DNA of 58,888 bases from Halanaerobiales bacterium (lineage in GTDB: Bacteria > Bacillota > Halanaerobiia > Halanaerobiales > M55B127): assembly GCA_018334565.1 (NCBI GenBank), contig JAGXLU010000009.1, positions 1 to 58,888 of the forward strand, read 5' to 3'. Made by a program: the position numbers and the translations under genes. The first letter of the stretch is position 1. Each line of letters begins with the position of its first letter. This document shows positions 16,901 through 44,632 of the stretch, one piece after another. Under the pieces are notes generated by a model that was not told where the DNA came from, did not search any database, and was given only the letters and a program-made list of their open reading frames with translations.

Positions 16901-17788
16901 ATGTATAAATTACAAGGAGTAATTCCAGCAATGGTAACACCGTTTAAAGAGGATAGAAGTATTGATGAAAAAGGTCTTCAAATCTTGGTTAAAAAGCTTT
17001 CGGATCAAGGATGCCATGGAATACTTATTGGTGGAAGTACAGGAGAATATACTTTAATGAGTATTGAAGAAAGAAAAAAAATATTTCAACTTGCAGTAGA
17101 AGCAGCTAAAGATGAACCGGTAGCAATTATTGCTAATACAGGTTGCCACGCTACTGAGCATACTATAAAACTATCTCAGTCTGCTCAAAAAGCAGGTGTT
17201 GATGCAGTTATGGTTTTACCTACTTATTATCTAAAAACTACTAAAGAAGGTATAAAGAATCACTATAAGAATATATCAAAAAAATTGGATATACCTATGA
17301 CAATATATCATTATCCAGAGGCTACTAATGTTTTATTATCACCTGAAGAAATAATTGAACTAAGTAAAATTGAAAATATAATAGGCATAAAAAACACAGC
17401 TCCTATGCAGCATACAAGCAAACTTTTACATTTAACAAAAGATATGGATAAATTTGATGTATTAACTGGCTATGAGCATTTGTTTTTGTCAACCCTTGCT
17501 TGTGGGGGAAGTGGCGTTATTGGTATTGTTAATAATATTGTTGCTGAAGAGCTTGTTGAAATGTATAATTTAATACAAATGGGTGACATAAAAAAAGCTA
17601 GAACAGTAAATGACAGTCTTATAAATTTATATAGTCTTATGGAAGAAGAGCCCTGCCCCGGCCCTGTAAAAGCAGCATTAAATAAAATGGGATGGCCGGC
17701 TGGCCCAAGTAGACTTCCAATAGTACCTGCCTCAGAAGAAATGAAGAAAAAAATAGAAGTGGAATTAAAAAAACTGGGGAAAATATAA
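16901..17788 (+). CDS. DHDPS/N-acetylneuraminate lyase (DapA) family; candidate pyrroline-4-hydroxy-2-carboxylate deaminase
   Basis: GVIPAMVTPFKEDRSIDEKGL...GGSTGEYTLMSIEERKK...IYHYPEATN...IIGIKNTA (Schiff-base Lys). Specific substrate inferred from context. Confidence 0.85.
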   Translation: MYKLQGVIPAMVTPFKEDRSIDEKGLQILVKKLSDQGCHGILIGGSTGEYTLMSIEERKKIFQLAVEAAKDEPVAIIANTGCHATEHTIKLSQSAQKAGVDAVMVLPTYYLKTTKEGIKNHYKNISKKLDIPMTIYHYPEATNVLLSPEEIIELSKIENIIGIKNTAPMQHTSKLLHLTKDMDKFDVLTGYEHLFLSTLACGGSGVIGIVNNIVAEELVEMYNLIQMGDIKKARTVNDSLINLYSLMEEEPCPGPVKAALNKMGWPAGPSRLPIVPASEEMKKKIEVELKKLGKI

Positions 17789-18132
17789 TATTATAAAATA
17801 TTTTAATAAATTCAGAAGAAATGAGTTTATTTATTAAAACACTACTTGTATTTCAAATTTTTATTCTTTTTTCACATAGTTTAAGTAAAAAATAGTTTTT
17901 TAAATATTAATAAGATTTTTCTTCATCATTATTTTATTAGTTATTTAACTATATAATAGAGAGTGTTTTAAGGTTTTTGTATAAAGATTTCCCTTTATTT
18001 ATCTAGTTATAGCGGGAGATAAACCTCTTATTTTTTAGTGTTTTTTTGATTTTTTCTCTACATATAGTCCATAAATTGGAGAACAGAAAACATTTAAAAT
18101 TAGATGAACATAAGATAAATATAGGTTAATTA

Positions 18133-19170
18133 ATGGGGAAGGTGAGAATTATGAGGTTTGAAAGAGTTTTTAATACGATAAGCACCCACACTGCTGGGCA
18201 ACCAACCAGGACCATAGTGGGGGGAATTCCCTATGTATTAGGAACAACTATGCAAGAAAAGATGCAGCATATGCAAAAAAACCAAGATTGGATTAGAAAG
18301 GCTTTGATGTATGAACCCAGAGGTAATAATGTTATGTCAGGAGTAATATTAACCGAACCTTGCAATCCCGAAGCTGATATAGGTGTTATATTCATTGAAG
18401 TGGGCGGTTATTTGCCAATGTGTGGTCATGATACGATAGGAGTATCAACAGCGTTAATTGAAAGTGGTATAATAAAAGCAAAAGAGCCGGTTACAAAAAT
18501 AACTCTTGACACACCAGCCGGGTTAGTAAAAGTAAAAGTTAATGTAAAAGATAATGTAGCTCGCGAAGTTAGTTTTACCAATATACCATCTTTTTTATTT
18601 CTTAAAGAAAAACAAATAAAAGTAGAAAAATTAAATCAAATAAAAGTAGATATCGCTTATGGCGGTAATTTTTATATTATAGTAGATGAATCAGATTTGG
18701 GAGAAAAGTTAATTCCGGAATATGCAAATAAAATTATTGAAAAAGCGAATCTAATTAAATCTGCTGTTAATAAACAGATAAATATATATCACCCAGAAAA
18801 AGAATTCATTAATAAGGCAACTCATGTAATGATAACATCTAATCCTTTAACAGATAAAGGGGATACAAAAAATGTTGTAGTACTTCCACCGGGTTCTATA
18901 GATCGTTCACCGTGTGGCACAGGAACTTCTGCAAAATTAGCCTGGTTATATGCCAATGATCTGGTTAAGACTAATGAAAAATTAAATTTTGAAAGCATTA
19001 TTAATACCTATTTTACTGGAAAGATAATAGATGTTACTAAGGTTGGAAAGTTCCAGGCAGTAATACCAGAAATAACCGGTCGTGCATATGTAACAGGAAT
19101 GAATCAGTGGATTATTGATCCAGAAGATCCGATCCGGGAAGGTTTTTTGCTTGGTAGGAAAACGGATTAA
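18133..19170 (+). CDS. Proline racemase family; candidate 4-hydroxyproline 2-epimerase
   Basis: STHTAGQPTRTIVGGIP; GGYLPMCGHDTIGVS; SIDRSPCGTGTSAKLAWLY: both catalytic Cys present (racemase/epimerase, not the Cys->Thr dehydratase). Confidence 0.88.
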   Translation: MGKVRIMRFERVFNTISTHTAGQPTRTIVGGIPYVLGTTMQEKMQHMQKNQDWIRKALMYEPRGNNVMSGVILTEPCNPEADIGVIFIEVGGYLPMCGHDTIGVSTALIESGIIKAKEPVTKITLDTPAGLVKVKVNVKDNVAREVSFTNIPSFLFLKEKQIKVEKLNQIKVDIAYGGNFYIIVDESDLGEKLIPEYANKIIEKANLIKSAVNKQINIYHPEKEFINKATHVMITSNPLTDKGDTKNVVVLPPGSIDRSPCGTGTSAKLAWLYANDLVKTNEKLNFESIINTYFTGKIIDVTKVGKFQAVIPEITGRAYVTGMNQWIIDPEDPIREGFLLGRKTD

Positions 19171-19187
19171 TTTAAGGGGGAAAATCT

Positions 19188-19514
19188 ATGGCTGGTAGAA
19201 TTGATAGACACCCTATCTTGGGAAAAAGAAAAGCAAAAGAAGAAGTTGAAATAATTTTTAACGGCAAAAAAATCAAGGCTGAAAAAGGTGAGATGATAGC
19301 TGCAGCCTTGCAAGCTAAAGGAATCAGAATTCATAGATTTACAATAAAAAATAAAGAACCTCGCGGGGTTTTTTGTGGTATTGGCCAGTGTACCGACTGT
19401 GCTATGGAAGTAAATGGACAGCCGAACGTGAGAACCTGTGTAACTCCTGTAGAAGAGGGTATGGTTATAAATACTCAATATGGTTTAAATAGAGATGGTG
19501 ATAATATTGATTAA
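19188..19514 (+). CDS. (2Fe-2S)-binding protein, HcnA/D-hydroxyproline dehydrogenase small-subunit-like
   Basis: VEIIFNGKKIKAEKGEMIAAALQAKGI...RGVFCGIGQCTDCAMEVNGQPNVRTCVTPVEEGM. Confidence 0.9.
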   Translation: MAGRIDRHPILGKRKAKEEVEIIFNGKKIKAEKGEMIAAALQAKGIRIHRFTIKNKEPRGVFCGIGQCTDCAMEVNGQPNVRTCVTPVEEGMVINTQYGLNRDGDNID

Positions 19515-21132
19515 AATGGAGATGGTAGTTATAGGTGCAGGACCTGCTGGTTTATCATCTGCTATAGAAGCAGCTAAAGAAGGGGTTGAGGTTCTTCTTG
19601 TTGATGAAAATCTTAAAGCTGGAGGACAGCTATTTAAGCAGATACATAAGTTTTTCGGATCCAGTGATCATCGTGCTGGCGTTCGAGGAATAGATATTGG
19701 TAAAGAACTTATTAATGAGTCGAGAAAATTAGGGGTTAATATTTGGTTGAATAGTATTGCTATTGGTATATTTGATGATAAAAATATATTAATAAAACAG
19801 AATAAAAATGGACGAGAAAGTCTAAAAAGAGTTCAGGCAGATAAAATAATTATTGCTACAGGAGCTTCAGAAAAGGTAATTAATTTTACAAACTGGACTC
19901 TTCCTGGAGTAATGGGAGCTGGAGCAGCTCAAACGATGATTAATGTCCATCGAGTTCTTCCAGGAGATAGATTTCTTATGGTTGGTACAGGTAATGTTGG
20001 ACTGATAGTTTCCTACCAGTTAATTCAGGCTGGAGCAAAGGTTGTAGGATTAATAGATGCAGCAGAGGAAGTAGGCGGTTATGGTGTTCATGCAGCTAAA
20101 ATAGCTAGAAAAGGAGTTCCTTTTTATTTAAATCATACTATCATTAAAGCTGATGGGAATAATAAAGATGGAGTAACCGGGGCAGTTATAGCTGAAGTTG
20201 ATGATAATTGGCAGCCTATTTCTGGAACTGAAAAAGAATTAAAAGTAGATGTAATTACATTAGCAGCAGGATTAAAACCACTTTCAGAGTTGGCTAATAT
20301 GGCTGGTTGTAAAAGAACATATATTTCTGAACTCGGTGGTTGGGTTCCCCTGCACAATGAAAACATGGAATCAACTGTGTCAGGGGTTTATGTGGTAGGA
20401 GATGTTACCGGTGTAGAAGAGGCCAACACAGCTTTAGAAGAAGGTAGGCTGGCCGGGATAGATGCAGCCGAAAAATTAGGAAGAATAGCTGCTAAAGAAA
20501 GTAATAATAAAAAGAAAAATATTACAAAAAGAGTAAAAAACTTGAGGTTGGGTCCTTTTGGTGAAAACAGACTGAAAGCAAAAGAAAAATTGATAAAAGA
20601 ATATTATGAATTAACAGACAAAGACTGCAGAGAAAAATATGATCCAGTAAAAGCAATGGAACACCAGTCAGGTGAAAAAATAAAGAGAATATCTGTAGAC
20701 CATATTGACAAAACTCAAGGGCCAGTAGCAGTAATAGAATGCAATCAAGAAATTCCTTGTAATCCCTGTGAATTAGCTTGTAAGTTTGGTGCTATTGAAA
20801 TTGGAGAACCAATCACAAATATTCCTATACTAAATGAAGAAAAATGTACGGGATGTGGTCTTTGTTTGCCTCAGTGTCCAGGTTTAGCAATATTTTTAAT
20901 AGATAAAAGCTATAGTTCAGATAAAAGTACAGTTGCTTTTCCATATGAATATAAGCATATTCCTAAAAAAGGAGATATTGTTGATGCAGTTGATCGTCAG
21001 GGTAATTACCTATGCAAGGCTGAGGTGGTAAAAGTGCTTCAACTAGAAAAGTTTGATAAAACACCGATAGTAACTATTAGTGTTTTAGATAAATATATAG
21101 ATGATGCCCGAAATATTAAAATGTCTGATTGA
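19495..21132 (+). CDS. FAD/NAD(P)-dependent oxidoreductase with C-terminal 4Fe-4S ferredoxin domain (HcnB-like)
   Basis: VIGAGPAGLSSAIEAAKEGVEVLLVDENLKAGGQLFKQ; CTGCGLCLPQCPGLAIF. Actual start may be 19507/19516, after the upstream stop. Confidence 0.9.
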   Translation: MVIILIKMEMVVIGAGPAGLSSAIEAAKEGVEVLLVDENLKAGGQLFKQIHKFFGSSDHRAGVRGIDIGKELINESRKLGVNIWLNSIAIGIFDDKNILIKQNKNGRESLKRVQADKIIIATGASEKVINFTNWTLPGVMGAGAAQTMINVHRVLPGDRFLMVGTGNVGLIVSYQLIQAGAKVVGLIDAAEEVGGYGVHAAKIARKGVPFYLNHTIIKADGNNKDGVTGAVIAEVDDNWQPISGTEKELKVDVITLAAGLKPLSELANMAGCKRTYISELGGWVPLHNENMESTVSGVYVVGDVTGVEEANTALEEGRLAGIDAAEKLGRIAAKESNNKKKNITKRVKNLRLGPFGENRLKAKEKLIKEYYELTDKDCREKYDPVKAMEHQSGEKIKRISVDHIDKTQGPVAVIECNQEIPCNPCELACKFGAIEIGEPITNIPILNEEKCTGCGLCLPQCPGLAIFLIDKSYSSDKSTVAFPYEYKHIPKKGDIVDAVDRQGNYLCKAEVVKVLQLEKFDKTPIVTISVLDKYIDDARNIKMSD

Positions 21133-21147
21133 AAGGAGGGTTAAGTT

Positions 21148-21420
21148 TTGAAGGATGATGTAATAGTATGTCGTTGTGAAGAAGTAACTTTAGGTGAAAT
21201 TAAAGAAGCTATAGAAGCTGGAGCGAGGACAGTAACCGATGTTAAAAGAAGAACTAGAGCGGGGATGGGTCTCTGTCAAGGGAAGTCATGTGAAATAATT
21301 GTTCAACGGCAGCTTTGTAAGCAGTTAAATTTATCATCTGAAGAAGCGCATCCTGCTAGAGATAGAGCTCCGGTAAGACCAATTTCTTTTGGGGTATTAG
21401 GAGATGAATACAATGATTAA
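21148..21420 (+). CDS. BFD-like (2Fe-2S)-binding protein
   Basis: VCRCEEVTLGEIKEAIEAGARTVTDVKRRTRAGMGLCQGKSCEIIV. Confidence 0.9.
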   Translation: MKDDVIVCRCEEVTLGEIKEAIEAGARTVTDVKRRTRAGMGLCQGKSCEIIVQRQLCKQLNLSSEEAHPARDRAPVRPISFGVLGDEYND

Positions 21421-22603
21421 ATATGATGCTGTAATAGTTGGAGGAGGAGTTATTGGTTCCTGTATTTCTTATTATCTTACTGAGGCCGGTCTAAAAGTAG
21501 CCTTAGTTGAAAAAGGAGATATAGCGAGTGGAACAACCAGCAGCTGTGATGGCAATATACTAATTTCAGATAAAAAACCAGGTTTTGATACCGATTTAGC
21601 GGCTGTCAGCCAGAACTTGTTTGAAGAACTTGATCAAAAACTGGATTATGAGTATGATTATACTAAAAAAGGCAGCCTATATCTAATAGAAAGTCAAGAA
21701 GAATGGTCAGTTGCAGAACAGTTTGTAAAAGAACAAACTGCAAATGGATATGCAATGAGGATGCTCGATTATGATCAAGTTCATAGAGATGAGCCCCTTC
21801 TGGCTGATGATATAATTGGTGGTATAGAAATAGAGACTGATGCAGCAGTTTATCCAATGGCCTTTACTTATTCTTTAATAGATAAAGCTTGTAAAAATGG
21901 ACTTAAACTTTATAATTATAATTCTGTAGAGGATATTATTTTAGATACTAAAGGTCAGATTGAGTCTGTTTTGCTATCCGGTGGCGAAAAGATTAGGACA
22001 ACTAATGTAATAAATGCTGCAGGAGTATGGGCTCCTGAAATTGGGCAAATGGTTGGTCTAGATATTCCGATCCAACCTCGTCAGGGGCAGATTCTTGTTG
22101 CAGAAAGGACAAGGCAGGTTGGAAAACGCAAAATTGTTGAATTTGGTTATATGATGGCCAAATTTGGCAGCAAGAATTATAAGAGGGATATCCATCCTAT
22201 TCTAGAGAAATATGGGATTGCTTTTGTTTTTGAACCAACAGCTGCAGATAATTTCCTAATTGGAAGCAGTCGTCAGTTCGTTAATTTTGATAATAGAATA
22301 TCTATAGAAGTCATGAAGGGTCTAGCAGCCAGGGCTATTAGATTTTTCCCGAGTATGAAAGATATTAATGTCATTAGAGCTTATGCTGGTCTCAGACCTT
22401 ATGTTAATGATCATTTTCCTATTGTTTCTGCTGTTGAGAATGTGCCCGGCTTTTATATAGCAGCAGGTCATGAGGGAGATGGAATAGGATTGGCTCCGGT
22501 CACAGGCAAACTAGTCGAACATTTAATAATAGGAAATGACATCAATATACCCTTGGATTTAGATTTTGCAGTCCAGAAATTAAGTTTCAACAGGTTTTTT
22601 TAA
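21404..22603 (+). CDS. FAD-dependent (DAO-family) oxidoreductase, HcnC/D-amino-acid dehydrogenase-like
   Basis: YDAVIVGGGVIGSCISYYLTEAGLKVALVEKGDIASGTTSSCDGN...AGHEGDGIGLAPVTGKLV. Confidence 0.92.
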   Translation: MNTMIKYDAVIVGGGVIGSCISYYLTEAGLKVALVEKGDIASGTTSSCDGNILISDKKPGFDTDLAAVSQNLFEELDQKLDYEYDYTKKGSLYLIESQEEWSVAEQFVKEQTANGYAMRMLDYDQVHRDEPLLADDIIGGIEIETDAAVYPMAFTYSLIDKACKNGLKLYNYNSVEDIILDTKGQIESVLLSGGEKIRTTNVINAAGVWAPEIGQMVGLDIPIQPRQGQILVAERTRQVGKRKIVEFGYMMAKFGSKNYKRDIHPILEKYGIAFVFEPTAADNFLIGSSRQFVNFDNRISIEVMKGLAARAIRFFPSMKDINVIRAYAGLRPYVNDHFPIVSAVENVPGFYIAAGHEGDGIGLAPVTGKLVEHLIIGNDINIPLDLDFAVQKLSFNRFF

Positions 22604-22786
22604 GATAAGTGCTAAGATATATGGATCTGAATATAAGAATGTTGCTGATTCTATCAATGTTATAGCTTAAATTGGCAAGAAGATGGACTGTGTCGTAAAG
22701 TTAAAGCAATAATTATTGTGAAAGTAATTAAATTATCTTTGATAAAAGATTTTGAGAATGATATTTTGGATTACATAGAAAAGTAA

Positions 22787-24688
22787 ATGATAGGAGGTAT
22801 AACTTTGAAAGAAAAGTTATTTGGATATGCAGGTAAACAACTTAGAATTTCACTATCAGACATGAAAGTAACAAAAGAAGAATTAGAGCCTAAATTGATT
22901 CGTAAGTATTTAGGAGGTACAGGTTATGGTATTAAAGTTCTCTATGATGAGCTTGAAAGCGGTATTGATCCCTTAGGAGAAAAAAATAAACTTGTTTTCA
23001 CTACCAGCCCATTAACAAAAAGACAGGTACCGGGAGGTGGCAGCCTTGAAATATGTTTTAAGTCTCCCTTAACAAAAACCTGGAGTGAATCTCGAGTTGG
23101 TGATGAATTTGGCTTTGCCATGAGGTCAGCAGGATACGATTTTCTTATCATTGAAGGCAAGGCTAAAACCCCATCCTATATAGTTATTGAAGATGACAAA
23201 GTAAAAATTAAAGATGGTAAAAATTTAATTCAAAAATCTTCCTCAGAAAAAGCTGAAGTTTTAGAAGATATATATGGGAAAGGTTATTCGATAATGACTA
23301 TCGGTCAAGGGGGAGAAAATGAGGTTTTTTATTCTGCTATAATGATTAACAACAGGGCAGCTGGTAGGGGTGGAGCTGGAGCAGTAATGGGATCAAAAAA
23401 TTTGTTGTCACTTATTTGTAAGGGCAGTAAAAAAGTAGAAGCAGCTGATCAGAATAAATTTATGAAGGCTGTTAAGGACACACATAAAAAGATTAAAGAT
23501 AACCCTGATACCAAGGGATTTAGAAAGCACGGCACGACCGGAGATATGGGTGAATGTGATGATATGGGTGATTTCCCAACCAAGAACTGGCAGTCTAATT
23601 CCTGGGGTAAGGGTGATGAGCTTTATGAACATTTCTATAAAAATAATCTTGTAGATAATAAGCAGTGTTATAAGGGCTGTCCTATAGGATGTGGAAGAAT
23701 TGCACGTGTGAAAGAAGGCAAATATAAGACGCCTTTACATGAGGGAGCTGAATATGAAACCCTAACTGCTTTTACAGCATTTGTTCTAAATGAAGATGTA
23801 GATGCAGCTGTTCACTGCGATTACCTTTGTAACGAATATGGTATTGATACAATTTCTACAGGAGCAGCTATTGCGTTTGCTATGGAATGTTATGAAAATG
23901 GATTGCTTTCAGAAGAATATACAGATGGTTTAGAACTTAAATGGGGTAATACAGAAATCTTACCTAAATTAGTTAAAAAAATTGCTAATCGGGAGGGGCT
24001 TGGAGATTTACTGGCCGATGGTGTGAAGAAGGCAGCAGACAAACTGGGAGGTCGAGCAGTAGATTTTGCTGTTCAGGTCAAGGGATTAGAAGCTCCAGCC
24101 CATGATCCTCGTTCTGGTAAAGCTCTGGCGGTAACATATGGCACTGGTAATAGAGGTTCTTGTCATATTCATCCAGTAGAAGCAATGGGGTTTGATGCTG
24201 GCAAGATGGATTTTAGTCTATCTGAATTTGGCTTACCTGACCCGGAAGATTTTGATCGCTGGGATGAAGAGGGCAAAGGCAAAGTTGTTAAGCTTCTTCA
24301 AGATGGCGGTACAATACCTGATATTATTGTTGTTTGTAAATTTATGCTTTATGTAGGGGCTGAGATTAAAGATTATGCAGATATGCTCACTGGATTAACC
24401 GGTTGGGATATTGATGGTTGGGAATTACTTGAGATAGGAGAAAGAGTTATTAATCTTCAAAAACTCTTTAACCAAAGAGAGGGCTTTGATCGAGGAGATG
24501 ATATGATTCATCCCAGAATGGGTAAAATCCCTGCTTTCGGAAAATATAAAGATCAAAAAGACTGTGCTATATATGACTATATAGCTATGCTCGATGAATA
24601 TTATCAAGAGCGGGGTTGGGATAAAGAAACCGGCCAACCACTTCCAAATAGGCTGAAAAAATTAGGTTTAGAAACATATATTACTTAA
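22787..24688 (+). CDS. Aldehyde:ferredoxin oxidoreductase (AOR, tungsten-pterin)
   Basis: RKYLGGTGYGIKVLYDE; RAAGRGGAGAVMGSKNL; QCYKGCPIGCGR; DPRSGKALAVTYGTGNRGSCH. Confidence 0.95.
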   Translation: MIGGITLKEKLFGYAGKQLRISLSDMKVTKEELEPKLIRKYLGGTGYGIKVLYDELESGIDPLGEKNKLVFTTSPLTKRQVPGGGSLEICFKSPLTKTWSESRVGDEFGFAMRSAGYDFLIIEGKAKTPSYIVIEDDKVKIKDGKNLIQKSSSEKAEVLEDIYGKGYSIMTIGQGGENEVFYSAIMINNRAAGRGGAGAVMGSKNLLSLICKGSKKVEAADQNKFMKAVKDTHKKIKDNPDTKGFRKHGTTGDMGECDDMGDFPTKNWQSNSWGKGDELYEHFYKNNLVDNKQCYKGCPIGCGRIARVKEGKYKTPLHEGAEYETLTAFTAFVLNEDVDAAVHCDYLCNEYGIDTISTGAAIAFAMECYENGLLSEEYTDGLELKWGNTEILPKLVKKIANREGLGDLLADGVKKAADKLGGRAVDFAVQVKGLEAPAHDPRSGKALAVTYGTGNRGSCHIHPVEAMGFDAGKMDFSLSEFGLPDPEDFDRWDEEGKGKVVKLLQDGGTIPDIIVVCKFMLYVGAEIKDYADMLTGLTGWDIDGWELLEIGERVINLQKLFNQREGFDRGDDMIHPRMGKIPAFGKYKDQKDCAIYDYIAMLDEYYQERGWDKETGQPLPNRLKKLGLETYIT

Positions 24689-37256: not shown

Positions 37257-37285
37257 TTGACATTATTACTTCTCGGTGGTAAAAT
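37257..37285 (+). promoter_or_regulatory. Sigma-A promoter of the T-box leader
   Basis: TTGACA (37257-37262), 17-bp spacer, TAAAAT (37280-37285). Confidence 0.75.
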
Positions 37286-37289
37286 CATT

Positions 37290-37592
37290 ATCAATAACAT
37301 ATGATTAAATTCTTTGACCAAGAAGAGTATCTTTATGATTTCATTTACAGAGAGCCGACAGAGCTGAGATTCCGGTGATGAAAAAATAAAGAGAATGGCC
37401 TTGTGAGAAGCAGGGGGAAATATCTTTGATATGATAAATTATCCTGTGCCGGTTTTTGCCCGTTAGTAGCAAATAAAAATCATTTTTTAATAGATGGTTT
37501 TTAATAAAGTGAGTTAATATTAATTAACTAACAAGGGTGGCAACACGGAATTATTAATCTTTCGTCCCTAAGCGGGGTGAAGGGTTTTTTTA
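37290..37592 (+). promoter_or_regulatory. T-box riboswitch leader with terminator
   Basis: Stem I with AGTA (37327-37330)/GAA (37393-37395) specifier loop, AGAGAGCCG and GCTGAGA distal elements; T-box AAGGGTGGCAACACGG (37533-37548); terminator stem TTCGTCCC/GGGGTGAA (37561-37581) plus T-run. Confidence 0.92.
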
Positions 37593-37659
37593 TTTCGTGT
37601 GCCACCTTTTTTTAATTATATATATTACATTAGAAACCAAAAGAAGGGAGTTGCTTATT

Positions 37660-38385
37660 TTGTATGATTTAAAGATTGTTGTAGAAAGTATAGAAGGTTT
37701 TTGTGATTTACCAATGGAAATTGGTGATTATTTCACCGTCAGTGGGGGGAAGATAGAAATACCGGAAGGTAAACATATGTGTTTGTGGGCTCTGCAAAGT
37801 TTGATGCCGGTACTGCCAGCAAAACAGAGAGAATTAAATGAAGAAAATGACTGGATTCCACATACCAAAAGATTTATATGTCCTGACCCTAATGGAAGGG
37901 TTATTTTCAGGATCGATAGGCTGGATCCCAAAACAGGTAAACCGTTAGAAGAAGAAATAGAAATACCGCCAAGGATACTGGTTAACCCAGATGCCTGCAC
38001 TGGCTGTAGGGCTTGTGAAACAGTCTGTGCTTTTGTACATACTCAAAGCTTTAATGCTTTGAGATCGCGTATAAAAATCGAAAAAAACGAAATTAAAGGT
38101 GAAGATATTCCATATATCTGTAGACAGTGTGGAGATGCTCCTTGTATTAAAGCCTGTCCTGTTGAGGCCTTAAGTAGAAGCCCCAAAACCAATGCAATAT
38201 TAGTTGATGAGGATAAATGTATTGGGTGTAACAAATGTGCTGAAGCCTGTCCCTTTGATGCGATTTCTTTTAATGAAAATAATGTGGCTTTGATCTGTGA
38301 TCTCTGTGATGGAGATGTAGAATGTGTGCAGAGATGTCCAACAGATGCCTTGAAGTTTGATAATAAAGGAGGTAGAAAAAAATGA
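37660..38385 (+). CDS. TIGR04076-like domain fused to a 4Fe-4S ferredoxin (AOR partner)
   Basis: N-term MEIGDYFTVSGGKIEIPEGKHMCLWALQSLMPVLPAKQRE...FICPDPNGRVIFRIDRL; then CTGCRACETVC, CRQCGDAPCIKACP, CIGCNKCAEACP, CDLCDGDVECVQRCP. TTG start at 37660 fits RBS GAAGGGAG. Confidence 0.8.
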   Translation: MYDLKIVVESIEGFCDLPMEIGDYFTVSGGKIEIPEGKHMCLWALQSLMPVLPAKQRELNEENDWIPHTKRFICPDPNGRVIFRIDRLDPKTGKPLEEEIEIPPRILVNPDACTGCRACETVCAFVHTQSFNALRSRIKIEKNEIKGEDIPYICRQCGDAPCIKACPVEALSRSPKTNAILVDEDKCIGCNKCAEACPFDAISFNENNVALICDLCDGDVECVQRCPTDALKFDNKGGRKK

Positions 38386-40280
38386 ACTACGGATACTGTA
38401 ATAAGGCTTTAAGAATAGACCTTTCAAATAATTTAATAAAAAAAGAAAAATTAGATGAAGAATTTTTAAAAAAATATCTGGGAGGACGGGGGTTAAATGT
38501 ACGCCGCCTTTATGATGAAGTACCTCCTGAAGTTGATCCTTTAAGTACAGAAAACAAGATGTTTATCGGAGTTGGTCCTTTAACGGGTACCTTATTTCCT
38601 GGAGCAGCCCGTGTGAACTTTACAGCCAAATCACCTCAGACTAAAATTTTAGGTGACTCAAATACAGGTGGATTTTTGGGCCCAGAGATTAAATTTGCCG
38701 GTTTTGATCAGATAATTATAGAGGGTAAGGCTGATCAATTATCTTACATATATATTAAAGACGGTGAAGCTGAAATTAAATCAGCCCAACATTTAAAACA
38801 GTTAGATACCTTTGAGACCCAAAAGAAGATAAAAGAAGAATTGGGTGACAACCGTGTACAGACTGCTGTTATCGGACCAGCTGCTGAAAATGGGGTTAAG
38901 TATTCCGGTATTTTCTGTAATATGGTAAGGGCAGCTGCAAGAACCGGTATGGGGTTAGTGTTAGCAAGTAAAAATATAAAAGCGATTGCGGTTAGAGGTA
39001 CAAAAGATCTTAGTGCAAGAAAACCAGATAAATTTAAACAACTAATTGATAAGATGGATGAGGAAATAAAAAACCACTCCGAATATGAGATAAGAACTAG
39101 ACTTGGGACTACTCAACTAATTTCTTCTCTAAATGAATTAGGCTGTCTGGCTACCAGACATTTTCAGACCGGCTATTTTGAAGATGCTGACAAAGTAAGT
39201 GGTGAATACTTTGAAGAAAACTATAAGCAGAAAGAAAAAGGTTGTTTTGCCTGTACGATTCCCTGCAGCAGATACTTCGAAATTACAAAAGGCAAGTATA
39301 AAGGATTAAAAAGTGAAGGGCCTGAATTCGAGGGGCTAGCAGGTTTTTCTTCTCGAGTGGGAGTTTCTGATATTGAAGATGCCCTATATGGAGTTGATTT
39401 ATGTAATCGATATGGACTTGATGTAATAACAACTTCGGAGTGTATATCTTTTACCATGGAGCTATATGAAAAAGGTATATTAACCAGTGAAGAGATTGAT
39501 GGACTAAAACCTGAATTTGGCAACAGTGAAGTAGTATTTAACCTAATTGAAAAGATTAAAAATAGAGAAGGTTTCGGAGATATCCTGGCAGATGGAGTAG
39601 TTACAGCGGCTGAAAAAATTGGTAGGGGCACAAAAAAACTTGCTATGCATGTAAAGGGATTAGAAATATTCCAGGCTGATCCCCGTGGGATAAAGGGTTA
39701 TGGTCTAGGAGTAGCAGTTGCTACCAGAGGGGGAGACCATCTTCGTAGTGAACCCTGGTTTGAATTCAGTGAAGATGCTGAAGAAGGCAAGAGAAGATTT
39801 GGCCATCCGGAATCAGCTTTTAGATTAGAATATAAAGGCAAAGGGAGGGTAGTAAAATACTATGAAGAGAGGTGTGTATTAGCCGACTGTTTAGAAGCCT
39901 GTAAAAATACAGTTGTAAATATGGAGATTATTTCATTTAAAGAAGCAGCTGAATTGCTTAATACATTAACGGAGTATCGATTTACACCTGAAGAAATTAA
40001 GAAATCAGCAGAAAGAATTATGAACGTTGAAAGGGCTTATATAGTAAGAGAAGGAATCAGGCGAAAAGATGATACTCTACCAGATCGTTTTTTAAATGAA
40101 CCTCTACCTGAAGAATGCGGGGTCTCGGCAGGAAGTGTTGTAGAATTAGAACCAATGTTAGACGAATATTATAAGGCAAGGGAATGGGAAGTAAATACAG
40201 GGCTTCCGACCGAAAGCAAGTTAAGCGAACTAAGTTTAGATAAAATTATGCTCGATTTAAAGAAAAGAGAAATTATTTAG
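38382..40280 (+). CDS. Aldehyde:ferredoxin oxidoreductase family protein (second AOR)
   Basis: KKYLGGRGLNVRRLYDEVPPEVDPLSTENK; GCFACTIPCSRYF; CVLADCLEACKN; AARTGMGLVLASKNIKAIAVRGT. Confidence 0.94.
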   Translation: MNYGYCNKALRIDLSNNLIKKEKLDEEFLKKYLGGRGLNVRRLYDEVPPEVDPLSTENKMFIGVGPLTGTLFPGAARVNFTAKSPQTKILGDSNTGGFLGPEIKFAGFDQIIIEGKADQLSYIYIKDGEAEIKSAQHLKQLDTFETQKKIKEELGDNRVQTAVIGPAAENGVKYSGIFCNMVRAAARTGMGLVLASKNIKAIAVRGTKDLSARKPDKFKQLIDKMDEEIKNHSEYEIRTRLGTTQLISSLNELGCLATRHFQTGYFEDADKVSGEYFEENYKQKEKGCFACTIPCSRYFEITKGKYKGLKSEGPEFEGLAGFSSRVGVSDIEDALYGVDLCNRYGLDVITTSECISFTMELYEKGILTSEEIDGLKPEFGNSEVVFNLIEKIKNREGFGDILADGVVTAAEKIGRGTKKLAMHVKGLEIFQADPRGIKGYGLGVAVATRGGDHLRSEPWFEFSEDAEEGKRRFGHPESAFRLEYKGKGRVVKYYEERCVLADCLEACKNTVVNMEIISFKEAAELLNTLTEYRFTPEEIKKSAERIMNVERAYIVREGIRRKDDTLPDRFLNEPLPEECGVSAGSVVELEPMLDEYYKAREWEVNTGLPTESKLSELSLDKIMLDLKKREII

Positions 40281-40298
40281 ATTTAAAGTATAAGAGGA

Positions 40299-41708
40299 GT
40301 GAGTATTAAAATGAAAAAAAAGAAGGATAATGAGATTTTAAAGTTCTATGGCGGAAAGTTTATGGTTTTTGTTCCTATTTTTTTAGCATTAGTTGGACTG
40401 GTATACATAGCTTTACAAAATGCAAATATTCCTGAATATTGGGTTGTGTTTTTACTCCCCTTAATTTTTATCATGCCTTTTGTGAAAGACAAAGAAAAAT
40501 TTGCAAATGTTATTATAGACGGTTTTAGTTCCAGGGTTGCCATGATTTTAGTGGTTGCTGTAATGTTGGCGGGTATTTCCGGAACTATCTTAAATGAAAG
40601 TGGACTGATAAAAACTCTTGTAACTTATCTTGTCAATTTGAACCTGGTTGGTAGTAAATTTGTGGTTGCCACCTTTATACTAACAGGTATTGTGGCATTG
40701 TCTACTGGGACATCAGTAGGAACAATCTTTGTGGTAAGTCCTATATTATATCCGGTTGGATATTTGGTTGGAAGCAACCCGGCTCTTTTGATCGGAGCTA
40801 TAGTTTCAGGTGGTGCTTTTGGAGATAATCTATCTCCTGTTTCTGATACAACAATTGCTTCAGCCACAACCCAGGGCATGGATATTGGAGGTGTTGTAAA
40901 AAGTAGGCTTAAATATTCAATACCAACTGCCTTAATTACCATTTTACTCTACAGCTTTATCGGCAGAGGTGGTAGTATGTCTGATCAAATTAGTGAATAT
41001 GTTGGTACTCCTCAACCGATTAACTTGCTTTTTCTCTTAGTTCCAATTGTGATAGTTTACCTTTGTGTAAGGCAACACCATTTAATTGAAGCTTTGAGTT
41101 ACGGTATCATTACTGGCTTAATAATTGGACTTTTTACTGGTGTTATTACTCCCAATATGATTATTAATGTTCCGGAACCTTTTGGAGCGGGCGGCATTAT
41201 ACTTGAGGGGATTCAGGGTTCAGTCCCTACTATTATAGTAGTTCTAATCTTATTTGCCCAGATTAACTTTTTAAAAGAAGGTGGTGGTATTGATATAATT
41301 ATCAATATGATGGCTAGATTTGTTCGGGGTATTAAAACTGCTGAACTGGCAATTGTTTCTCTTCTTATTTCACTAAATATTTTAACCGGTCTAAATACAG
41401 CTGCAATAATTGGCACTGGTGAAATAGCAAATGAAATGGGAGAAAAATACAATATTAGTGGTTACAGACGTGCAAATCTAATGGACTGTGCAGGTACCAC
41501 CTTAAATTATCTTATACCTTATATGGTTCCCGTTGTAGTGGGTTCTATGATGAGTTCAATGTATGCACCTTTTGAAGATGCTGTTCAGGTGAGTACTTTA
41601 GATGTTGTAACAAATCAGTTTTATCCCTGGGTTATGCTTGTTGTCTTAATTTTTTCTATTGCAACAGGTTATGGCCGTGAATTTGCCTTTTTTGCCGATG
41701 TGGATTAA
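40299..41708 (+). CDS. NhaC-type Na+/H+ antiporter family transporter (possible amino-acid transporter)
   Basis: ALSTGTSVGTIFVVSPILYPVG...GAIVSGGAFGDNLSPVSDTTIASATTQGMDIGG; ~12 hydrophobic segments. Confidence 0.88.
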   Translation: MSIKMKKKKDNEILKFYGGKFMVFVPIFLALVGLVYIALQNANIPEYWVVFLLPLIFIMPFVKDKEKFANVIIDGFSSRVAMILVVAVMLAGISGTILNESGLIKTLVTYLVNLNLVGSKFVVATFILTGIVALSTGTSVGTIFVVSPILYPVGYLVGSNPALLIGAIVSGGAFGDNLSPVSDTTIASATTQGMDIGGVVKSRLKYSIPTALITILLYSFIGRGGSMSDQISEYVGTPQPINLLFLLVPIVIVYLCVRQHHLIEALSYGIITGLIIGLFTGVITPNMIINVPEPFGAGGIILEGIQGSVPTIIVVLILFAQINFLKEGGGIDIIINMMARFVRGIKTAELAIVSLLISLNILTGLNTAAIIGTGEIANEMGEKYNISGYRRANLMDCAGTTLNYLIPYMVPVVVGSMMSSMYAPFEDAVQVSTLDVVTNQFYPWVMLVVLIFSIATGYGREFAFFADVD

Positions 41709-41754
41709 TGTATTTTTGTTGATTTAATTATTAAATTTTCTTAAGAACATATAA

Positions 41755-41797
41755 CCTGCTGGATAAATTTTTATGATTCATATCCAGCAGGTTTTTC
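41755..41797 (+). terminator. Rho-independent terminator of the T-box/AOR operon
   Basis: CCTGCTGGATA (41755-41765) / TATCCAGCAGG (41781-41791) then TTTTTCTCTTT. Confidence 0.9.
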
Positions 41798-42049
41798 TCT
41801 TTAAAGTAATAACTTTAATTATGTCTTGAGTTATTTTTGTAATTCTAAATATTCAACATTTTAATCTTGTAGGGCAAAAAAATTTTTATGATACACTTAA
41901 TCAGCATTTTAAAGTCAAGAAAATATTATTTATCCTTTATGCTTTCTTCTAAAAAATTCTTATCGTAAACATTGGTATAAAAAAAGACGTTGAAAAAAAT
42001 TCTTCAATAATTTAAATAGGAATAATTACAAAATTAGGAGGTCTCGTTA

Positions 42050-42965
42050 ATGTCTGATGTTAGTATAGAATCTTTATTTTCCTTTCGCTTAGTAAAAATA
42101 AAAAGTTTCTTTAAAATTAAAGAACCTGATCTTGAATCTATATATTTTCTAATTCTAAGGTCTGATAAAAGATATACTCCAATCTTTCATAAATGTAAAA
42201 ATAAAGCTGAGGGCATATATTCCTGACATAAAAGAAAAATAAGAAATCTAGATATCCCGGATGTTGAATGTAATGTAAATTCTCATTACCGAAAAATTCA
42301 TTGTCCCAATTGTGGAATAAAGGTTGAAAAAACTGTTTTACTTCACCCGGAGGTCAACGAGTTACTAATAGATTAACTCAATATACCCAGGAATTATGCC
42401 AACATATGACGGTAAAAAAATTAGCAGAGCATCTTAACTTACACCAGGAAATAGTAAGAAAGATATATTGAAAAGTTTCTCAAAAAATTTGAGGAAACCA
42501 ATTATTCCCATTCAGGATTATTGATGGTAGGATAATTTTATTAGGAGAATATCATAAATGTTTAACTGTAGTTTTAGATTTCAAGACCAATTGTATAATC
42601 TGATTGAAAAAAGGTTGCAAGACAGTGACTTGAAATGAATTTTTTTAAAAGATGCTGTAAGCAAAACTAAATTCAATCAAAGCTATTGCTATAAATATGT
42701 AAAATCTTTTTATTAAGGCTGCCTGCGAACATAGTTCTCCGTCTTAAATAGTATTTGATAAATACCACTTAGTAGCCAGTTATAATAAAGATTATATTGA
42801 TAAAATAAGACAAACTGAACAGCATGAAAAGTCAAAAGTAAATCCCGAATAAAAAATATATCAAAAAAGTAGATGTAGAAAAGGTAATCATCTACAAAAG
42901 GTAAAAATTAATATTATATTTGGCCATCTTAGAAAGCAATAAAGATAATATGACATAAGATAAAG
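42050..42965 (+). pseudogene. Decayed ISL3-family transposase
   Basis: Across frames: IFHKCKNKAEGIYS, YRKIHCPNCGIKVEKTVLLHP, TQYTQELCQHMTVKKLAEHLNLHQEIVRKIY, IILLGEYHKCLTVVLDFKTNCII; many stops. Confidence 0.6.
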
Positions 42966-44632
42966 AAAGTAATAGTAAAGATTATACTTCAATTTTATCT
43001 AACTCAAAAAATAATTTTTTTAAAAAATGATCATAGGTATTTATAAGAAGACTATTTTTCTAAGTTATTGAATTATTAAAATTTTAACAAAAAGGAGTCT
43101 TATTTTTTTTATCAATAATTTTTTAAAGTTTCTTTTCTTATAATTTTTTTATATGTTTTATTAATTGGTTATTATAGATCTATCTTCTAAATAAATGTTC
43201 ATCTTTTTATCTGTTTTGGTATAACTAACTTAATTCATGTTCTGTTCTTCCCTGAATGTTTTCTTTGATGACAAATATTTTAGAGGTTAAAGGCATGTGC
43301 CTATTAGTTACTCTGTTATAAATTTTGTTTGTATTAAAAAAAATTTTTAAATATTCAGATAAATTTGACAATTTAGTATATATGAAATATAATAAAATTA
43401 AATAAAAATAAAGGTCAAGATAAAAATAGTTTTAGAAAAAAATATGAATAAAGTTATTTTCTTCTTAAATCCCTGATATAGAGATGTTTTAATATCAATA
43501 TTATAATAAAATATGGATATGTAATTGTAATTATAGATATAGTTTTTTATTAGTGACTTTAATTATACTAAATAGAATGAAAAAATTAATTGAGGTTTTT
43601 GCTTAAATTCCTTTTTATAATATTAAAAGTTTATTGATGAATTTAATAGTAAAGCATCTAGTATATAATTCAATTTAATCATTCACAACTCAACTCGATT
43701 AAATGAGGGTCTACGTATTCAGATAAAATTTCTAATTTTACCAAATAGATTTATTTAAGTTATTTTTTACTGTGATTTATTCAATAATCAAGTTGATACA
43801 GCTTAATAATATATTATGATCTTTGACTTTATTTCTTTCCTTAATTATAAACTTTTTAAGCCAAAAATTCTTTTTATTCACCAAAGACTCTTGCAACACT
43901 TATACCTTACTGCAAATTTTCTGCCGAGTTTTTATGGTCTTCTTTTGGTCTTTATTTGGTTATATGGTCATAAACTAGAATCAGAAGACGATGTTTAATT
44001 ATTTAATAGATTGCAATTCATCAAAACTTGATAATAGTATTATTATAAATAAATTTAGTAGATCATCTTATATCCTGAACAAAAAAGCAAAAAACACCAA
44101 AAGCATAATAAATGACAGTTATCATCTAAGCTTGTGTTAAATTAAAATGATAGTCCAGCTGTCATCACCAAAAAGTATTATTTCATAGATTTAATGCTAT
44201 AAACTATTATAAATTAAGATGAAGTATTTAAATTTTATTGGGAAAAATATTATTCATAAGTTAATGACTAAATAAGTTAATAAAGTAATTTGTCTATCAG
44301 TATGCTTAAAATATTTCAAGGTATTTTTTAAAAAGGAATGTTTATACTGACTATAGAACATAAAGGAAATATCCCGACTTTAAGTAATTGAAAATTCAAC
44401 TTTATGGGGGTGATAGATATATATTCTGAAATATAGTGCAAGATCGGATGCTTAAGGTTAGGGTTTATTGCAATGACAGATATCGATTAATGTAAATCGC
44501 AGAGAAATTAAACTAAACAAGTTATTACATTTTTTAGTTAAACAAAATAATTCATTCAGGAAATATTTTTAGGATGATCAAATTTAAAGATTTTTGTTTA
44601 ATAAAAGAATTAATTTGGAGGTATTTAAAACT

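Follow-up and report, generated by a model that had tools for sequence, protein, structure and literature searches.

No physiological role is known for most tungsten oxidoreductase (WOR) clades; 38 of the 40 class II clades are without a characterised member, and the 2026 classification of these enzymes mentions neither tryptophan nor riboswitches (PMC13328260). The window analysed here, the whole 58,888-nucleotide stretch of DNA from a Halanaerobiales bacterium, carries an operon in which such an enzyme (AOR) lies behind a T-box leader. It raises the question of which tRNA this leader senses and what a tungsten enzyme would do under its control. Our search, which did not extend to subscription papers, found no literature joining T-box, tryptophan and this enzyme family, and targeted searches on attenuation or a regulon for the family returned nothing relevant.

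The T-box leader and its specifier codon

The operon is arranged on the forward strand in the order promoter, T-box, terminator, Fe-S protein, AOR, NhaC-like transporter and terminator. A consensus scan placed a promoter, TTGACA-17-TAAAAT with TG ahead of the -10, at 37257–37285 (11 of 12 matches, a consensus match only). The leader at 37305–37572 was recognised by cmscan as RF00230 with 107.6 bits (E = 7.8e-23), exceeding the gathering score of 93. The GAA preceding the specifier is found at 37393–37395 in the sequence and in the Infernal alignment, the T-box bulge UGGC at 37538–37541, and an intrinsic terminator, consisting of a hairpin (37556–37586) and a T-run, at 37556–37593 by terminator scan and folding. 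The 5′ arm of this terminator shares its strand with the 3′ strand of the antiterminator, making the two structures mutually exclusive, and the modelled terminator is the stronger (-13.7 versus -6.3 kcal/mol). Thus, the complete T-box leader with promoter and terminator that a first-pass annotation had described was recovered in all its features.

That annotation had read the specifier as UGG (Trp) or GGC (Gly), depending on the register, and had preferred Trp. The Infernal alignment to RF00230, which it had proposed for settling the register, was run and placed UGG at 37396–37398, immediately 3′ of the GAA. The register was calibrated on the 11 other T-boxes of the window's genome (97% complete, 12 T-boxes in total), where the leaders with clear targets had their codon directly 3′ of the GAA or one purine later. 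The calibrating leaders were those of proBA (CCC), valS (GUC), serS (UCC), leuS (CUC), argG (CGC), pheS (UUC), thrS (ACC), ileS (AUC) and trpP (UGG), the trpP identity of the last being confirmed by PF17099 (166 bits). The 3′ ends of the host tRNAs, read directly, are ...GTGCCA in tRNA-Trp (G73), whose GCCA is the predicted partner of the UGGC bulge, and ...CTCCA in every tRNA-Gly (U73). By these discriminators the bulge is compatible only with Trp among the three neighbouring specifier frames, and Met (AUG, -1 frame) is out, both tRNA-Met having A73. A GGC codon can be read one base downstream, and sensing of tRNA-Gly is nevertheless extremely improbable, as U73 cannot pair with UGGC, the spacer would be U where all eight same-spacing leaders of the genome have a purine, and the orthologous leaders keep UGG, which is invariant in a seven-leader alignment. 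The call of tRNA-Trp is thereby upheld by the register calibration, the trpP leader as nearest paralogue, the tRNA discriminators and the UGG of 10 other orthologous leaders, and the earlier argument from G73 and U73 holds for the discriminators of the host itself.

The leader resembles the Trp T-boxes of trp operons, trpP and trp transporters in its stem I, GAA-UGG, UGGC/UGGU bulge and terminator/antiterminator; a UGGU bulge with G73 occurs in 46% of the Trp T-boxes in TBDB (PMC7778990). It differs from them in controlling a tungsten oxidoreductase operon and in the base 3′ of the specifier, which is C in the window leader and in its G037 orthologue, whereas A or G is usual and is found in the trpP leader and the remaining orthologous leaders; a purine at this position is common and not obligatory. 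Judged by its sequence, the window leader is a transcriptional tRNA-Trp T-box, for which we infer antitermination itself. Among other leaders, that of thrS has a UGGG bulge that would form a G-U discriminator pair with U73 of tRNA-Thr (as read from the TGT-anticodon tRNA alone), and an Ile (AUC) T-box under the gathering score precedes a peptide-transport-type substrate-binding protein.

Proteins of the operon and neighbouring loci

The first gene (37660–38385) starts with TTG at 37660, preceded by AAGAAGGGAG, and encodes a WorS-like Fe-S protein recognised by TIGR04076 (84 bits), Fer4 families and orthologue conservation. Its sequence contains an N-terminal TIGR04076 domain and 16 cysteines, enough for four [4Fe-4S] clusters and kept in the orthologues. 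The AOR (WorL) gene at 38382–40280 overlaps it by 4 bases and encodes the catalytic subunit with AFOR_N and AFOR_C domains (PF02730, PF01314) and a match to 1aor at E = 3.9e-122. Residues C288, C291, C295, C507, E317 and H453 align to the cluster cysteines and the catalytic Glu and His of 1aor, and we take their roles to be those of the P. furiosus AOR. The small subunit is encoded next to WorL and, as judged from cysteine conservation, would hold four [4Fe-4S] clusters, which places the pair with the class II enzymes (WorLS), like PfASOR and CbGOR (PMC13328260); unlike these, the small subunit of the window bears the TIGR04076 domain and the operon is Trp-controlled. When the AlphaFold model of this domain (pLDDT 81) was used for a fold search, nothing reached E ≤ 0.001, and the best weak matches, 3on5 (xanthine dehydrogenase, E 0.06) and 2we7 (Rv0376c homologue, E 0.53), offer a lead only.

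The transporter gene (40299–41708) follows the AOR gene after 18 bases. Its product belongs to the NhaC family by PF03553 (103.6 bits) and falls far below the cut-off of the NhaC Na+/H+ antiporter equivalog TIGR00931 (90 versus 370 bits), so that its sequence suggests an NhaC relative and at most a putative antiporter; a PDB sequence search returned no match. NhaC-family genes downstream of Tyr T-boxes are known (PMC2494555), and the present operon differs from those in its Trp specifier and the co-transcribed AOR. A strong intrinsic terminator ends the operon at 41753–41797 (fold of 41740–41805, -21.9 kcal/mol). Beyond it, nearly 2.8 kb (41800–44590) is without intact genes and contains a decayed ISL3-family transposase (HTH_Tnp_ISL3, 36 bits). 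A second AOR of the window (22787–24688) has no adjacent Fe-S partner and lies in a cluster (16901–24688) with a DHDPS-like protein, a proline racemase, 2Fe-2S and FAD proteins and a DAO-type oxidase, where it could replace the semialdehyde dehydrogenase in hydroxyproline breakdown.

Tryptophan attenuators in front of related operons

The AORs nearest to that of the window are 87, 80, 72 and 72% identical. Synteny of the Fe-S, AOR and NhaC genes is shared with G037, G036 and G022, and G033 has an NhaC gene (35% identical) and an aminotransferase gene upstream of the Fe-S/AOR pair. A scan of named genomes returned seven records, namely those four, two from Thermotogaceae and one from Clostridiaceae bacterium BRH_c20a (G038). 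In the tree, these AORs form one clade with support 100/100, to which the order's remaining AORs do not belong. A phylum-wide sample of 399 genomes added 11 AOR orthologues with 52–66% identity; the related genomes include MAGs. The partner transporter differs among the operons (NhaC, APC or Liv-type ABC) and the Fe-S protein and AOR are constant. The upstream region was readable in 17 operons, those of G036 and G290 being interrupted by contig ends, and 15 of the 17 carry a Trp attenuator.

Eleven of these, the window included, are UGG T-boxes. A T-box with UGG/UGGC is conserved at the G037 orthologue, and G038 has one of 129.6 bits (UGG-G, bulge UGGU) ahead of Fe-S, AOR and APC permease genes. 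UGG/UGGC T-boxes precede Fe-S, AOR and Liv-type ABC genes in seven genomes, five of one genus, G200 of a second family and G164. That of G164 scored 96.7 bits, over the Rfam gathering score; three other scanned ones are under it (42–49 bits), their leader being rich in G+C and interrupted by long inserts, and those of G200, G135 and G173 were recognised by eye and similarity only. In G364, a UGG/UGGC T-box found by motif, and not by Rfam, precedes NhaC (55% identical), Fe-S protein and AOR genes. Global alignment to the window leader scored 159 for the G037 orthologue, 98 for the trpP leader and at most 34 for the other leaders of the genome. Because these scores place the window leader beside the trpP leader, a duplication of the latter is the most likely origin of the former. 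The G038 leader scored 18 against the window leader and 16–47 against unrelated T-boxes, and is thus no nearer to the former than to the latter. UGG T-boxes were probably recruited before these operons at least three times.

Two further kinds of attenuator were found in front of the same operon. G022 and G033 are without a T-box and have (G/U)AG arrays, each followed by a terminator, as in TRAP (MtrB) attenuation; the array of G022 has 8 repeats, spaced 2–3 nt, and that of G033 has 7. None of 5000 shuffles matched the arrays, and no further chain of seven or more was present in 2.07 Mb with both strands counted. The G022 array is able to pair with the 5′ arm of its terminator in the predicted fold, and the MtrB search, which covered G022, identified MtrB/TRAP there (76 aa, PF02081, 136 bits). 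This identification is based on Pfam and not on the phmmer query; the gene lies at C22 and not in the first 1.59 Mb read. A T-box scan of both Thermotogaceae genomes found none; each has instead a short leader peptide with WWW (MKKLRLSLNLKRNAKINSAWWWHRSLFFEGSRVAV; ...KINNAWWWYRSLFFEGSRAAT), and in the fold of the leader RNA the Trp codons lie within a hairpin that is accompanied by a terminator. Thirteen bases of this first hairpin are complementary to the 5′ arm of the terminator. This 1:2/3:4 layout is that of the classical trp attenuator. The target of both kinds, unlike in known TRAP and trp leader-peptide systems, is an AOR operon and not trp biosynthesis genes. No T-box, TRAP array or leader peptide was found in the short upstream region of G099, and no attenuator was visible at the G237 AOR operon. 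Weaker tandem TRAP-like repeats with terminators occur in G237 (minus strand, about 1790–2030 of L203) before a divergent APC permease gene adjoining that operon.

The AOR paralogue loci scanned in the order had no T-box at the gathering threshold, which rules out the T-box as a general AOR feature, and the nine matches at these loci are Moco/tungsten riboswitches (RF01055 at L055, L056, L057, L059, L064, L065, L066 and L068). A T-box near an AOR in Halanaerobium lies downstream of the AOR and belongs to argG. That three unrelated RNA mechanisms place one WOR clade under tryptophan control is a strong and testable pointer to its function. More generally, where the substrate of an enzyme is unknown, attenuators that have converged on its operon can serve as a method of linking it to a pathway.

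A proposed role in tryptophan supply

T-box, TRAP and leader-peptide attenuation all switch genes on when tryptophan is scarce. In the window, uncharged tRNA-Trp would pair with UGG and the UGGC bulge and stabilise the antiterminator, letting RNA polymerase enter the operon, whereas with charged tRNA-Trp the terminator would stay formed and the operon off. Expression would then be expected under tryptophan scarcity and would yield a ferredoxin-linked two-subunit tungsten oxidoreductase (WorS/WorL) and a transporter, which plausibly has a link to tryptophan and may import tryptophan or a related compound. TrpB was not found above the cut-off in the window's genome, where the best match was threonine synthase-like, and the organism is on this ground likely a Trp auxotroph. 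The operon is, in our judgement, likely to be a tRNA-Trp-controlled module for tryptophan acquisition or salvage, with the tungsten enzyme catalysing a ferredoxin-linked acid/aldehyde conversion that contributes to supply and not to degradation.

The first-pass annotation had instead assigned the AOR to oxidation of indoleacetaldehyde derived from imported tryptophan or aromatics. AORs accept many aldehydes (PMC13328260) and the genome has an indolepyruvate oxidoreductase-like gene (583 bits versus a cut-off of 651), yet a Trp-degrading step turned on at Trp shortage would be self-defeating, the organism is a likely auxotroph, and this catabolic role is now disfavoured as quite improbable. Tryptophan uptake by the transporter alone might also explain the regulation, with the AOR pair as a passenger or as reduced-ferredoxin or redox support, given that the NhaC, APC and ABC families are established as carriers of amino acids and as targets of T-boxes (PMC2494555). 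We consider this unlikely, because the transporter is interchangeable across lineages that all keep WorS/WorL and the Trp attenuator, which argues for a part of the AOR itself in the Trp-supply response; moreover, in the Liv-type genomes and in G038 the attenuator lies immediately upstream of WorS. The enzyme thus probably contributes to the tryptophan supply of the cell through a route that has yet to be described. A tentative and rather doubtful form of this supply role is a tungsten-dependent salvage, in which the transporter would import an indolic acid or aldehyde under Trp starvation, WorLS would reduce or oxidise it, and indolepyruvate oxidoreductase or an aminotransferase would complete tryptophan; if true, a tungsten enzyme participates in amino-acid supply. 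Alternatively, the AOR could be a source of reduced ferredoxin and have no indolic compound as its substrate.

In G038, by comparison, trpB-A is under T-box control and an RF00230 match lies ahead of a trpE operon. The same genome carries a Phe (UUC) T-box of 82 bits, below gathering (L186 8492, minus strand), before a phenylacetate-CoA ligase-like gene, named by eye from its sequence, and another small gene. The ligase step is one of aryl-acid activation, and the locus suggests a T-box-controlled aryl-acid salvage, a parallel that supports the supply reading of the Trp operon.
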